DNA from: a virus
Reading direction: 5' to 3' (one strand)
Virus record (IMG/VR): IMGVR_UViG_3300032050_001018
Coordinates: 1 to 20,453 of that record
Length of the DNA stretch: 20,453 bases
Shown: positions 8,996 through 13,139 of the stretch, in pieces
Layout of the letters: every line of letters starts with the position of its first letter
How positions within the stretch are numbered: position 1 is the stretch's first letter
Position numbers and translations under genes: made by a program
Notes under the pieces: model-generated
What the model was told of the DNA's origin: nothing
The model's input: the letters and a program-made list of their open reading frames with translations, nothing else
Database searches by the model: none

Positions 8996-10423
8996 TTATT
9001 CTCCGTTCAGCGAAGCATTGCAATAATTACAGACGATACTTGATTTAGGACTAGGCATCTGACAACTTGGGCAGATTATAGCCATACCCGCAAGACCAGC
9101 ATGCGATACTGAACCATCTTTCAATTCTGTCAATGCCCATACTAGCGCATCTAATCTGTCAGGTGAATCAGTTGCTTCAGGTGTCCACATTACCATTTGG
9201 TCTTCTAATTGTGGAAACGCACCAACATGATGCACTCTTTGTTGTTCATATAAAGCCGAGATAGGTTCTGCTCTTACTCTCTTACCTCTAGTCGCATGAA
9301 CTTTGGTAACAGGCGCATTTCTATCTACTTGTTGTAAAACCATAATGACCATATCTCCGCCATTATTTGTTTCGGCGACGATGCGGTCTGCTTTCCAATT
9401 CTTAAATGCTGCGATTGCTTTCTTGCCCCACTCGTTTGGAGTAGATCGTAAAGTATCATCAGCGAGGACATAGAAGTGTCCGTCTGCACTTGCGCCTGCT
9501 GTAATGATTCCTGTTTCATCTGAATTCTCTCCGCTGGTTACTGCTGGGTCAATCGCTACTACTATGCGATAAAGAGGCGGAAGTTTGTCTGGCGTGATTC
9601 TGGTGTCTTCAATCCAGTCACGAATCCACAATGCGCCTTCGGCTGCATCAAGAAGTTCGCCATATAACTCTTGCCTTCCTGTGCGAGTGCCTTCGTATCT
9701 CGCTCGCAACTCAATGAGTGCGGTCTCAGATAAGTTTTTAGCATTATCAAATGTACTGCCTCTCGTAACATAAACAGAACCATCTGTTCGTGTTGTCCAA
9801 TCACGGAGGAGTTTGATTGGTTTCGGAGTTGTAGTAACAACCACTCTCGGTCTGTCGCCGATACGGAGTGCTGGTGCTAAACCTTCCGTCCATGTTTCAT
9901 ACGGATATGGCCACATAGCCAACTCGTCTAACCAAGCACCTGATAAATTCAAACCACGACCTGCGTCTGGACTGTCAGCACCAAACATGTGTACTACTTG
10001 ACCGTCTTTGAATAATATCTTGTATGAAGATTTGTTATATATATAATCTATATCAGGTAGTAAACCTCTATGGTTCAATGCCTTTAGAAATCCTGATGGT
10101 CCTTCTACGCACACATTCTTAGTATCAGCGAACCTTGGTGCAATTATTGCCCATTGAGTTGCTGCGCCGTCAGGTGCTTTAGGGTTTTCTAATATATTTC
10201 GGGCTAACCATTCGCCACCAGTTCTAGTCTTACCCCAACCACGACCTGAAAGAATTAACCAGACATTCCAATCGCCTTCGGGTTCTTGCTGTTCAGGTCT
10301 GCCAATGAACCACCATGGCTTGCGAGATAAATCTTTAATGACGCTATCAGGAAGCGTTTGTATCCAGTTCGCTCGTTCCTGCTTCGTCAGAGATTGAATC
10401 TGATCCCGAATTGATAAACCCAT
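8996..10423 (-). CDS. terL: Terminase large subunit
   Basis: The packaging ATPase motifs are clear: Walker A-like SGRGWGKT (59-66), Walker B AWLDEL with D166/E167, and motif III TTTPKP (198-202 region). The C-terminal RNase H-like nuclease has IDPAVTSG (D292), ETNNGG (E351) and DRLDALVWA (D422/D425). At 475 residues it is of normal size. After the nuclease comes an extra zinc ribbon (C451, C454, C465, C468) that ends the protein. The ATG at 10423 lies 77 nt inside the small-terminase gene; the N-terminal SLTKQERANWIQ segment looks genuine, so the overlap is probably real. The enzyme packages concatemeric DNA through the portal and cuts it. Confidence 0.95.
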   Translation of the reverse strand: MGLSIRDQIQSLTKQERANWIQTLPDSVIKDLSRKPWWFIGRPEQQEPEGDWNVWLILSGRGWGKTRTGGEWLARNILENPKAPDGAATQWAIIAPRFADTKNVCVEGPSGFLKALNHRGLLPDIDYIYNKSSYKILFKDGQVVHMFGADSPDAGRGLNLSGAWLDELAMWPYPYETWTEGLAPALRIGDRPRVVVTTTPKPIKLLRDWTTRTDGSVYVTRGSTFDNAKNLSETALIELRARYEGTRTGRQELYGELLDAAEGALWIRDWIEDTRITPDKLPPLYRIVVAIDPAVTSGENSDETGIITAGASADGHFYVLADDTLRSTPNEWGKKAIAAFKNWKADRIVAETNNGGDMVIMVLQQVDRNAPVTKVHATRGKRVRAEPISALYEQQRVHHVGAFPQLEDQMVMWTPEATDSPDRLDALVWALTELKDGSVSHAGLAGMAIICPSCQMPSPKSSIVCNYCNASLNGE

Positions 10424-10844
10424 CTTTTGAATCGCCCTCGTCTAAGTATGCTAGAACTGCCTTCTTCGCATCTTCAATTGATAATGCTAGTGGTGCGCCA
10501 TCGGGACCACTAATTTCTTGCCTAATCTTATCGTTCCTGCCCCAACGCTCTCCGTACTTTCTTTCAAGCCACCATGCTGATGCTTGCCATCTGCCATTTT
10601 GTGCTGCTTGTTGAATTCTTGCTACCGCAGCCACTTCAGCCTCGGCTTCAGCCTGTGTGAGCGACTCCGAGAACTCCAGAAATTCTGGGTCTGCCTCTGG
10701 TTTTCTTGCTTGTTCTAGCCAAGAATACAATGTTGATTCACTGATTCCTGCCATAGCAGCAGCCACCTTCTTGTCATTACCTGCTCGTATAGAGGTTAAG
10801 AATCTACGCTTTACATCTTCCGTTAATTTACTTGGGCGAGCCAT
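10347..10844 (-). CDS. terS: Terminase small subunit
   Basis: The 165-residue protein starts MARPSKLTEDVKRRFLTSIR and has an N-terminal helix-turn-helix (KKVAAAMAGISESTLYSWLE, ~25-44), the DNA-recognition part of small terminases. A helical oligomerisation core follows (TQAEAEAEVAAVARIQQAAQ), then WWLERKYGERWGRND, a segment common in phage TerS proteins. The acidic Ser/Asp-rich tail would contact the large subunit. AAAGGA sits 7 nt before the ATG and overlaps the stop of the glycosyltransferase gene. The adjacent TerL supports the call. Confidence 0.88.
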   Translation of the reverse strand: MARPSKLTEDVKRRFLTSIRAGNDKKVAAAMAGISESTLYSWLEQARKPEADPEFLEFSESLTQAEAEAEVAAVARIQQAAQNGRWQASAWWLERKYGERWGRNDKIRQEISGPDGAPLALSIEDAKKAVLAYLDEGDSKDGFINSGSDSISDEAGTSELDTNAS

Positions 10845-10855
10845 TGCCTATTCCT

Positions 10856-11641
10856 TTATGGTCGTGGGTATTTGTTGAAGGTTATAGGCTTCAAGCGAAG
10901 ATTGACTACTCCGCCTGCTTTGATTTGAATAGATGAGATATCAGGATATCTTGATTGAACCCATTTTAATTCTTCTGCGTGCCTATCCGCTCTTTTTGCG
11001 CCATCTTCTGTTACGCAAGCATCTATACCGCCAGTTGCAAAATACTTTGTTTTTGGGCATAGAAATTCTAATCGTACTACTGAACCATAACGAGTGAAGC
11101 CTCTAAGGGTGCTGTGATGGTCTTCGCCTGTTGGTGTCATGCGGCGATTCGGGTCTGTGAATATCCAATCACCAGCAAATGTTCCCATGAAATTAGCGCA
11201 GATATATCGCAAGCCTACTGACACATGATTCTTTAGAAAGAAATGGTTCATTGTAGGGTTGATGCCCCACATCTTTGCATTTTCTAACTCTGCGTATTTA
11301 TATCCCATGCTTACGATATCGTCTATCGTGTATTGCGTAGGAATTAACTTCTTGTCGCCGAGTTCTAATAAATCTGCCATGTCATCATCAATACTGACAA
11401 TGCGCTCGCCTATTGGAAACCAGTTATGATAAAACTTTCTTTGGCTAGATATGCCACGAACACCTACAACTATTTGATATTCGCCATTTAATGCGGTGTT
11501 GTATGTTTCGTATTCTTCTTCGTTAGCAACAAATATAACAATGTTGTCACGATTTACCGAAAGTCTATCTAATACTGCGAGTGTCTGATTTTTTAATATA
11601 TCAGGTCGTCTGTAAGACGGTATCGCAATCGTATATTTCAT
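10856..11641 (-). CDS. GT-A glycosyltransferase, TAGT-like
   Basis: The 261-residue product opens with YTIAIPSYRRPD (3-14), the nucleotide-sugar binding start of GT-A enzymes. It continues with GVRGISSQRKF (60-70) and ERIVSIDDDMADLL (79-92), whose D85-D87 are the metal/UDP-binding acidic motif. Later GEDHHSTLR (172-180) could supply the catalytic acidic residue. The arrangement resembles TET-associated glycosyltransferases (TAGT), which add sugar to hydroxymethylated bases in phage DNA. The strongest support is context: the ATG overlaps the dioxygenase stop by 4 nt (ATGA), so oxidation and sugar transfer are translationally coupled. The donor sugar cannot be read from sequence. Alternative: a glycosyltransferase acting on a virion protein or host surface. 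Confidence 0.72.
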   Translation of the reverse strand: MKYTIAIPSYRRPDILKNQTLAVLDRLSVNRDNIVIFVANEEEYETYNTALNGEYQIVVGVRGISSQRKFYHNWFPIGERIVSIDDDMADLLELGDKKLIPTQYTIDDIVSMGYKYAELENAKMWGINPTMNHFFLKNHVSVGLRYICANFMGTFAGDWIFTDPNRRMTPTGEDHHSTLRGFTRYGSVVRLEFLCPKTKYFATGGIDACVTEDGAKRADRHAEELKWVQSRYPDISSIQIKAGGVVNLRLKPITFNKYPRP

Positions 11642-12501
11642 TTTATCTTGAAAGCGGTATCACCTTTGACTGCTGATGCAAGTCCAACTTCTCGTTCGGT
11701 TCTGCGCTTCCGTGCTTCCTTTTGTTCTACTGCGTAAGTGAAACAATCTTTCATGCCACGCAAACAGTAGTACACAACTGTATATCTATATGAATCTTTT
11801 TGAACATGTTTGATTGGTGTTACGCCATGTAAATATCTAAATCCCGGAAAGAACAATACCCAGCCATCACGACATTCAATTACTAAATCGTATTCAGGCA
11901 TTGATAAATAACCGCCACGAGTACCTCTGCGAATAACAGGCATAGCAGACCACATATCAAAATTGTTACCATCAAAATGATATGGAAGTGTGGAGGTTTT
12001 ATTGATCACTCCGCTTGTCCATAATGAACGCTCGCTGATGCGCCACTCATCTGTGACTGCATTTGTTTCTTGTACATCTTTGTCATAAATATCAGGCGCA
12101 AACTCACGCATCATATCTGCTAATAAATCTGCTGTTTCAACCAGAACATCATGTTCTTCAGGTTGTTCGTATGTCAGGCTAGTAGGTCTGCATGCTTCAC
12201 GAGTTTGAAATGGTTTGCGTGGTGCCATGCCGAATGTACGAGAATGATTTTCAGTTCCAGTTGATTGACGAGTTACACCTGATGAACTGTATTTAACATT
12301 ACGGACTGCTTGACGCAATTTAGGAACAGCATCTGCTGGCATTTCACAATAAACTAAAAATGGTTCATTGGTTTCAGCATCAACATAGATACCTGCTTTA
12401 GTAACATTTGCTTCTAAATCAGGAACATCGTTGCCTTTAATTTCTTTTGATTGATCTCTTGTGATTACTCGCTTAACTGGAATAATTTCTAAATCAATCA
12501 T
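11638..12501 (-). CDS. 2OG-Fe(II) dioxygenase, TET/JBP-like
   Basis: The C-terminal half carries the full 2-oxoglutarate/Fe(II) dioxygenase set on a double-stranded beta-helix: HxD in LPYHFDGN (H175, D177), the distal His in RYLHGVTPI (H225), and the 2OG-binding Arg in SYRYTVVYY (R239). The intervening GGYLSMPEYDLVIE ... DGWVLFFPG is the style seen in TET/JBP enzymes and also in prolyl-hydroxylase-like relatives. The N-terminal half (1-150) contains a Lys/Arg-rich stretch and could bind DNA. The gene is 4 nt overlapped on both sides, with the ParB-like gene upstream and the glycosyltransferase downstream. This context favours oxidation of a 5-methyl pyrimidine in DNA. A protein or small-molecule hydroxylase is the main alternative. 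Confidence 0.7.
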   Translation of the reverse strand: MIDLEIIPVKRVITRDQSKEIKGNDVPDLEANVTKAGIYVDAETNEPFLVYCEMPADAVPKLRQAVRNVKYSSSGVTRQSTGTENHSRTFGMAPRKPFQTREACRPTSLTYEQPEEHDVLVETADLLADMMREFAPDIYDKDVQETNAVTDEWRISERSLWTSGVINKTSTLPYHFDGNNFDMWSAMPVIRRGTRGGYLSMPEYDLVIECRDGWVLFFPGFRYLHGVTPIKHVQKDSYRYTVVYYCLRGMKDCFTYAVEQKEARKRRTEREVGLASAVKGDTAFKIK

Positions 12502-13139
12502 GATGGGCTGTTTTCTCCTGTTGTTAATTCGACTAATTTTAGAATTGCATCAGCGTTGCTCTCAACGCCATACTGTTCTCTGAGTGCTGTCAGTTTTTCA
12601 ATTATCCAAACATATTGTGCGTTTGGATATTCACACATCAATAAACGGATTGTGCGCTCTGCGTAATGTTCTGCTCGCTCAGATAATGTTGGGCGATGTT
12701 GAACATTTTCTTGCTGTCCTTCTAGCGGATTGCCTGTTTTCCAATCAACTGCAACTTTTTCTTCTAGGAATGCTAACAAATCATCAACATCTGCTGGTTC
12801 GTAACCAGTTCCTTCTAAATTGATTTCTTCTAATAAATCTAATAATGCTTGCTCGTCGTAAGTTCCTAATTCACCCAAACGATTATCTGCTGCAACAATT
12901 TTTTTTGCTTGATCATCATTGACATCAATCTCAACTACATTGATATCAGTCCAGCCTAATTCTTTTGCTGCTTTCCATAAATGATTGCCAGCAAGTATTT
13001 GTTGTGTTGATTTTTGCACAACAATTGGTTTGTATTGCCCATTAGCAGTTAATGATTCTGCTAGTTTTTTGACATTACCTTTGCGTGGATTGCCAGGAAA
13101 TTCTTTTAATGTATCAACTGATACTTTGATTGCTTCCAT
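12498..13139 (-). CDS. ParB/sulfiredoxin-fold protein without methyltransferase
   Basis: Residues 1-~95 are a ParB N-terminal-like domain: FPGNPRKGNVKKLAESLTA (14-32), then ILAGNHLWKAAKELG (48-62) at the place of the G-x-H-R motif, and VAADNRLGELGTYD (82-95), a segment typical of phage ParB domains fused to DNA methylases. Here no methylase follows; the C-terminal ~115 residues are helical, with ERAEHYAERTIRLL. At 213 residues it is complete. GAAAGG is 5 nt before the ATG. It heads the operon and overlaps the dioxygenase gene by 4 nt. Likely roles are targeting or regulating DNA modification, or nicking; a plasmid-type partition role is unlikely, as no ParA is nearby. Confidence 0.75.
   Translation of the reverse strand: MEAIKVSVDTLKEFPGNPRKGNVKKLAESLTANGQYKPIVVQKSTQQILAGNHLWKAAKELGWTDINVVEIDVNDDQAKKIVAADNRLGELGTYDEQALLDLLEEINLEGTGYEPADVDDLLAFLEEKVAVDWKTGNPLEGQQENVQHRPTLSERAEHYAERTIRLLMCEYPNAQYVWIIEKLTALREQYGVESNADAILKLVELTTGENSPS

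Follow-up and report, generated by a model that had tools for sequence, protein, structure and literature searches.

An origin in phage DNA modification is assumed for TET/JBP enzymes, and Iyer et al. reportedly predicted phage clusters of TET and TAGT genes, possibly with ParB. The demonstrated phage TET chemistry that we could trace acts on cytosine. 5hmdU is the substrate of a 5hmdU DNA kinase and of transferases in phages M6, ViI and phiW-14, and as of 2019 glucosylated 5hmU had not been reported from phages (PMC6449724). The ParB, Tet, aGPT and kinase genes of Rhodococcus phage Tonitrus were described by its authors as a thymidine hypermodification system (PMC11955845). We found no laboratory test of any ParB-linked TET cassette in the literature.

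Here we characterize such a cassette in an IMG/VR virus record of 20,453 bases, a genome fragment that is referred to as the window. An earlier note on this DNA had proposed that three coupled genes, encoding a ParB protein, a TET/JBP-like dioxygenase and a TAGT-like glycosyltransferase (GT), carry out DNA base hypermodification.

Organization of the cassette and probable host

The three open reading frames and the two ATGA junctions described for the cassette are present on the minus strand, in the order ParB, TET, GT, with a 4-nt overlap at both joints (Table 1). The terminase genes begin 11 bases past the GT gene on the same strand. An actinobacterial host is likely; the earlier suggestion that it is a low-GC member of this group is plausible in view of the G+C content of the window (41.7%), of a relative that carries the actinobacterial regulator WhiB, and of another relative that sits in an Actinomycetota MAG.

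Table 1. Features of the cassette and its surroundings, in window coordinates
Feature	Position	Strand	Basis or remark
ParB_N-domain protein, 213 aa	12498..13139	-	Pfam ParB_N; upstream partner of TET
ATGA overlap, ParB stop / TET start, 4 nt	12498..12501	-	sequence
TET/JBP-family Fe(II)/2OG dioxygenase, 287 aa	11638..12501	-	Pfam Tet_JBP, residues, fold
ATGA overlap, TET stop / GT start, 4 nt	11638..11641	-	sequence
TAGT-family GT-A glycosyltransferase, 261 aa, D85-D87 motif	10856..11641	-	TAGT family, phrog_842, model
Terminase small subunit, landmark downstream of tailoring slot	10347..10844	-	phrog_4102, 126 bits
Terminase large subunit, landmark downstream of slot	8996..10423	-	Pfam Terminase_6N/6C

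The dioxygenase belongs to the TET/JBP family

The dioxygenase scores 43.6 bits against Pfam Tet_JBP (PF12851), above the cut-off of 34.9, which agrees with the family proposed for it. The HxD pair (H175/D177), H225 and R239 had been correctly singled out, and all four residues are invariant in an alignment of 51 relatives; by homology to the family, H175, D177 and H225 would be the iron ligands and R239 the 2OG ligand. When the dioxygenase profile was compared to the PDB, TET structures were the only matches at E < 0.01. An AlphaFold2 model (pLDDT 83.8) was also analyzed with Foldseek, and ranks 1-26 were occupied by CcTet, NgTET1, TET2 and CMD1, followed by enzymes of the AlkB/FTO types. The grouping with protein or small-molecule hydroxylases that the earlier note had envisaged as an alternative was rejected on the best folds, which are of the TET type. 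By family, residues and predicted fold, the protein is a genuine TET/JBP enzyme.

The RefSeq name attached to this family, 'queuine tRNA-ribosyltransferase' (phrog_6059), was rejected, since both profile and fold indicate TET. The same name is carried by the TET genes of the Bclasvirinae mycobacteriophages L003, L086 and L090, where it looks like a propagated error. In loci L218, L249 and L004, TET enzymes are annotated as 'SNF2 DNA repair protein'; those of Cr30 and S-CBWM1 were confirmed with Pfam, and that of DLP6 is a TET by similarity.

ParB is the usual partner of TET

Relatives of the window TET were found in about 80 retained IMG/VR contigs and 93 phage records. ParB lies near TET in 91 of the 94 loci of the first set, and in 55 of the 57 loci that were left after dereplication at 95% TET identity. 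The two genes overlap or abut each other (gap ≤3 bp) in 52 of these 55 loci, a conserved junction. The cassette is real and well conserved, the profile matches of its genes argue against chance, and arrangements of this kind can already be seen in named phages.

The earlier note had taken the coupled ParB as the mark of a distinct version of the system. This did not hold, because nearly all close relatives, as well as named actinobacteriophages, have ParB immediately ahead of TET, and the ParB-TET-GT order itself recurs in Acadian and Indlovu and across dozens of IMG/VR contigs. ParB also adjoins TET, often together with an FkbM methyltransferase, in Prochlorococcus and Pelagibacter phages whose TETs are ~24% identical to that of the window. 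Acadian, Indlovu and these distant marine phages rule out a unique partner and, judging by gene order, ParB is typical rather than special.

The ParB protein itself scores 35.7 bits against Pfam ParB_N (cut-off 26.3) and aligns to the N-terminal domains of Noc/ParB. In the Noc alignment, the CTP motif GERRxRA of true ParB/Noc proteins (GERRWRA) is replaced by GNHLWKA. ParB_N domains have many roles, and no ParB was detected near TET clusters of the P12024L and Cr30 types, so that ParB could be a partition or regulatory protein that has nothing to do with modification, which would be compatible with either target base. We consider this rather unlikely, given that ParB-TET adjacency is kept down to ~24% TET identity, in the Pelagibacter and Prochlorococcus phages, and that the canonical CTP-motif residues are not kept in the window protein.

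In MED4-117, a gene annotated as 'DNA methylase' (L092:5831-6472) has ParB_N as its sole Pfam match, slightly under the cut-off. Marine phages (L099-L176, L179-L214) display the order ParB-FkbM-TET or ParB-TET-FkbM, mostly without a glycosyltransferase, and perhaps O-methylate the hydroxymethyl base.

The glycosyltransferase is related to TAGT

The window GT, taken alone, scores 21.1 bits (E 3e-4) against Pfam TAGT (PF20691) and falls below the cut-off of 27.5, whereas TAGT is the sole Pfam family matched by all 17 members of the GT family (best E 6.5e-38). The proposed TAGT relationship is seen at the level of the family. The GT also matches phrog_842 (beta-glucosyl-HMC-alpha-glucosyltransferase, 31.7 bits), and its DDD motif was confirmed as D85-D86-D87, which is invariant in the 17 family members. 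The GT model (pLDDT 89.4) displays a GT-A fold (best Z 14.4), with protein and polysaccharide HexNAc transferases as best structural matches; probing the PDB sequences with the GT profile produced noise only. By family and modeled fold, the protein is a TAGT relative with a GT-A fold and, its family being TAGT, it did not group with capsule enzymes, the outcome that had been named as contrary to a DNA-modifying role. TAGT is present in 19 of the 57 dereplicated TET loci.

Some relatives carry additional sugar-related genes. In Synechococcus phage S-CBWM1 (L004:3514-6924), genes for phosphoheptose isomerase and glucose-1-phosphate thymidylyltransferase come after the SNF2-annotated TET and a TAGT, and the donor sugar may be produced by the phage itself. 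Two tandem TAGT-like genes lie behind TET in L022, L025 and L069, which suggests a disaccharide on the base. Arthrobacter phage Klevey carries, as annotated, a PIG-L-type deacetylase behind the GT; since such a deacetylase comes after the GT in Acadian, Indlovu and Klevey, N-acetylhexosamine is suggested as the sugar in these three phages, not necessarily in the window phage.

Tailoring genes are exchanged in the slot between TET and terminase

The slot between TET and terminase is occupied by a variable set of genes across relatives. One version holds TAGT, behind which some contigs have FkbM, and Acadian and Indlovu a PIG-L deacetylase; in a second one, P-loop kinase3 and FAD or PLP-like genes accompany ADDT (amino acid:DNA transferase), and a third is made up of families without a name. 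ADDT and 5hmU kinase genes are absent from the window cassette and present in its sister cassettes. Among the 57 dereplicated loci, 24 are GT-type (a count that includes 5 loci with cluster 14 alone), 14 carry ADDT and none has both (Fisher p 1e-4, uncorrected for kinship). Cluster 14 remained nameless after Pfam, PHROGs and PDB sequence searches, and our guess from its sequence is that it could be a glycosyltransferase; clusters 12 and 9 received no name from Pfam or PHROGs. Families of 308 aa (L040:4765-5691) and 148 aa (L070:3040-3486), for which there were no Pfam or PHROG matches, occupy the slot in several phages.

On the TET tree, the GT label needs at least 10 changes, which are forced by supported branches, and individual swaps can be followed at the DNA level. 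L029 carries TAGT where L043 carries ADDT-PLP-kinase; their DNA can be aligned to either side of the exchanged genes, and their TETs, which are 84% identical, belong to a sister clade that shares 58% identity with the window TET. Between L045 (kinase) and L052 (cluster 14), the DNA flanking the exchange is ~90% identical in both directions. In a TET clade without ParB, L235 (TAGT) and L236 (ADDT-kinase) have DNA of 92% identity as far as the swap, and their TETs are 99.7% identical. From these clean swaps of GT against ADDT/kinase, one TET product appears to feed either tailoring route, on the premise that GT and ADDT/kinase both act on that product. The window's own TET clade, with 12 members, is uniformly GT-type.

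The Nigel protein annotated as 'terminase small subunit' (L086:1786-2382) is a P-loop nucleotide kinase3 (PF18751, 242.6 bits), and the Acadian gene of the same annotation (L003:3022-3588) clusters with it.

GT-A folds do not identify acceptors, and the HexNAc transferases that are closest in structure to the GT act on proteins and polysaccharides; one may thus ask whether TET makes 5hmU or 5hmC while the GT targets a protein or a cell-surface glycan. This reading is very improbable in our view, since TAGT is the only Pfam family matched in the 17 relatives, the GT gene shares a 4-nt overlap with TET, and the slot that the GT occupies is filled in other phages by ADDT/kinase genes that modify DNA. 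Because the dioxygenase is TET/JBP and the GT is TAGT-like, DNA base hypermodification by the cassette, the central proposal of the earlier note, is well supported by family and fold.

Thymine or cytosine as the target base

For the base, the earlier note had pointed to phage clusters that oxidize and glycosylate 5-methylcytosine (5mC). On this route, a C5-methyltransferase of phage or host would provide 5mC, TET would convert it to 5hmC and TAGT would glycosylate 5hmC. The route would follow the phage TET chemistry that has been demonstrated (Burke et al. 2021, as cited in PMC12730594), and glucosylated hmC is the presumed substrate of TAGT in T6-like phages (PMC13390438). 5mC of host origin might in principle supply TET and, in the window, which is a 20 kb genome fragment, no C5-methyltransferase adjoins TET.

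Among 49 records with related TETs, 5 carry a PF00145 C5-methyltransferase somewhere; it is absent from the other 44, including all 13 named phage genomes. Among the more distant marine ParB-TET clades, 2 of 40 records have the gene, and a set of 18 records from additional TET clades has none. Where present in ParB-TET records it lies kilobases from TET, whereas in the Methylophilales phages Melnitz it overlaps the TET gene (L250:2338-4522; clade L251-L321). A C5-methyltransferase is located ≤300 bp upstream of TET in 61 of 62 Melnitz-type loci, which are related, so that counts are not independent, and ParB is found in none of 71. Conversely, a relative of the Melnitz-type methyltransferase occurs in only 1 of 208 loci of ParB-TET clades, which are also related. 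In addition, ADDT genes, a mark of the hmU pathway, exchange into the same slot as TAGT. The cytosine route is therefore unlikely, and the earlier assignment is probably wrong: the methyltransferase is mostly missing from ParB-TET phages and adjacent to TET in the clade devoid of ParB. These sequence comparisons make 5mC an improbable substrate and thymine probably the likelier target base; for the window, the argument is carried over from sister clades, its own clade being all GT-type.

Other data bear on the choice of thymine. A thymidylate-synthase-family dUMP hydroxymethylase (PF00303) is absent from all 38 related records, which leaves TET as the only source of the hydroxymethyl group, and the family names of the slot genes (ADDT, 5hmU kinase) also point to 5hmdU-based pathways. 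Profile searches of the Melnitz-type loci found no TAGT or ADDT, and identified P-loop kinases beside 23 of 71 cytosine-type TETs, which weakens the kinase alone as a marker of thymine. The window TET has Leu247 at the position of H1904 of TET2 and H297 of NgTET1, the histidine that contacts 5mC in these enzymes; most cytosine-type phage TETs have Asp, not His, at this position, and Leu247 may argue weakly against 5mC as substrate. Thymine, itself a 5-methylpyrimidine and oxidized by JBP enzymes, would be the simplest substrate left for the window TET.

Proposed mechanism and implications

In our model, phage DNA would be hypermodified after replication by this ParB-TET operon. The ParB-like protein would probably guide or hold TET on phage DNA, TET would hydroxylate the methyl group of thymine in DNA to generate 5-hydroxymethyluracil (5hmU), and TAGT would add a sugar to the 5hmU hydroxyl prior to packaging, yielding a base-J-like base; glycosylated 5hmU would most likely block host nucleases. 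The model builds on what was computed, namely protein family and fold, the catalytic residues, a conserved operon, tailoring genes that replace one another, and the scarcity of methyltransferase and absence of hydroxymethylase in relatives, from which we infer thymine as target, the role of ParB, 5hmU glycosylation, the sugar and protection. That this ParB-TET operon oxidizes thymine in DNA to 5hmU, which TAGT then glycosylates into a base-J-like mark, is a reading to which we give reasonable credence. We are more tentative, and slightly inclined to doubt, regarding its broader form, in which base-J-like DNA would be produced in a bacterial virus along the lines known from trypanosomes, with a ParB-like protein in the place of a methyltransferase picking the thymines and the tailoring gene being exchanged as a cassette.

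If ParB-TET phages oxidize thymine, they would provide a bacterial counterpart of base J. Acadian, Indlovu and Klevey would then be easily grown test phages, and the enzymes could be useful for modifying thymine. The contrast between loci with ParB and loci with a methyltransferase makes the base question directly testable.

Comparison with known systems

The arrangement most similar to that of the window is found in Mycobacterium phages Acadian and Indlovu (Bclasvirinae), whose left-end genes 1-3 encode ParB, TET and a TAGT-related GT next to terminase; unlike the window, both carry a PIG-L deacetylase and a P-loop kinase behind the GT. The Acadian TET and GT are ~45% and 28% identical to those of the window, respectively. 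Rhodococcus phage Tonitrus (PMC11955845) shares ParB and a TET that is ~49% identical, with thymidine proposed as target, but employs ADDT/aGPT-type and 5hmU-kinase-type proteins for tailoring instead of a GT. In phages with a C5-methyltransferase and TET, represented here by the Melnitz type, a TET/JBP enzyme likewise makes a hydroxymethylpyrimidine in DNA for tailoring, but the methyltransferase lies upstream in the place of ParB. The base J pathway of kinetoplastids (JBP1/2 and JGT) corresponds to the one predicted here in that thymine is hydroxylated in DNA and then glycosylated; the window differs in its ParB partner, and its chemistry is a prediction from genes. Lastly, the 5hmdU pathway of M6, ViI and phiW-14 has the ADDT and kinase families in common with the sister cassettes of the window, but these phages make 5hmdU as a nucleotide before replication, whereas the window TET would generate 5hmU within DNA.
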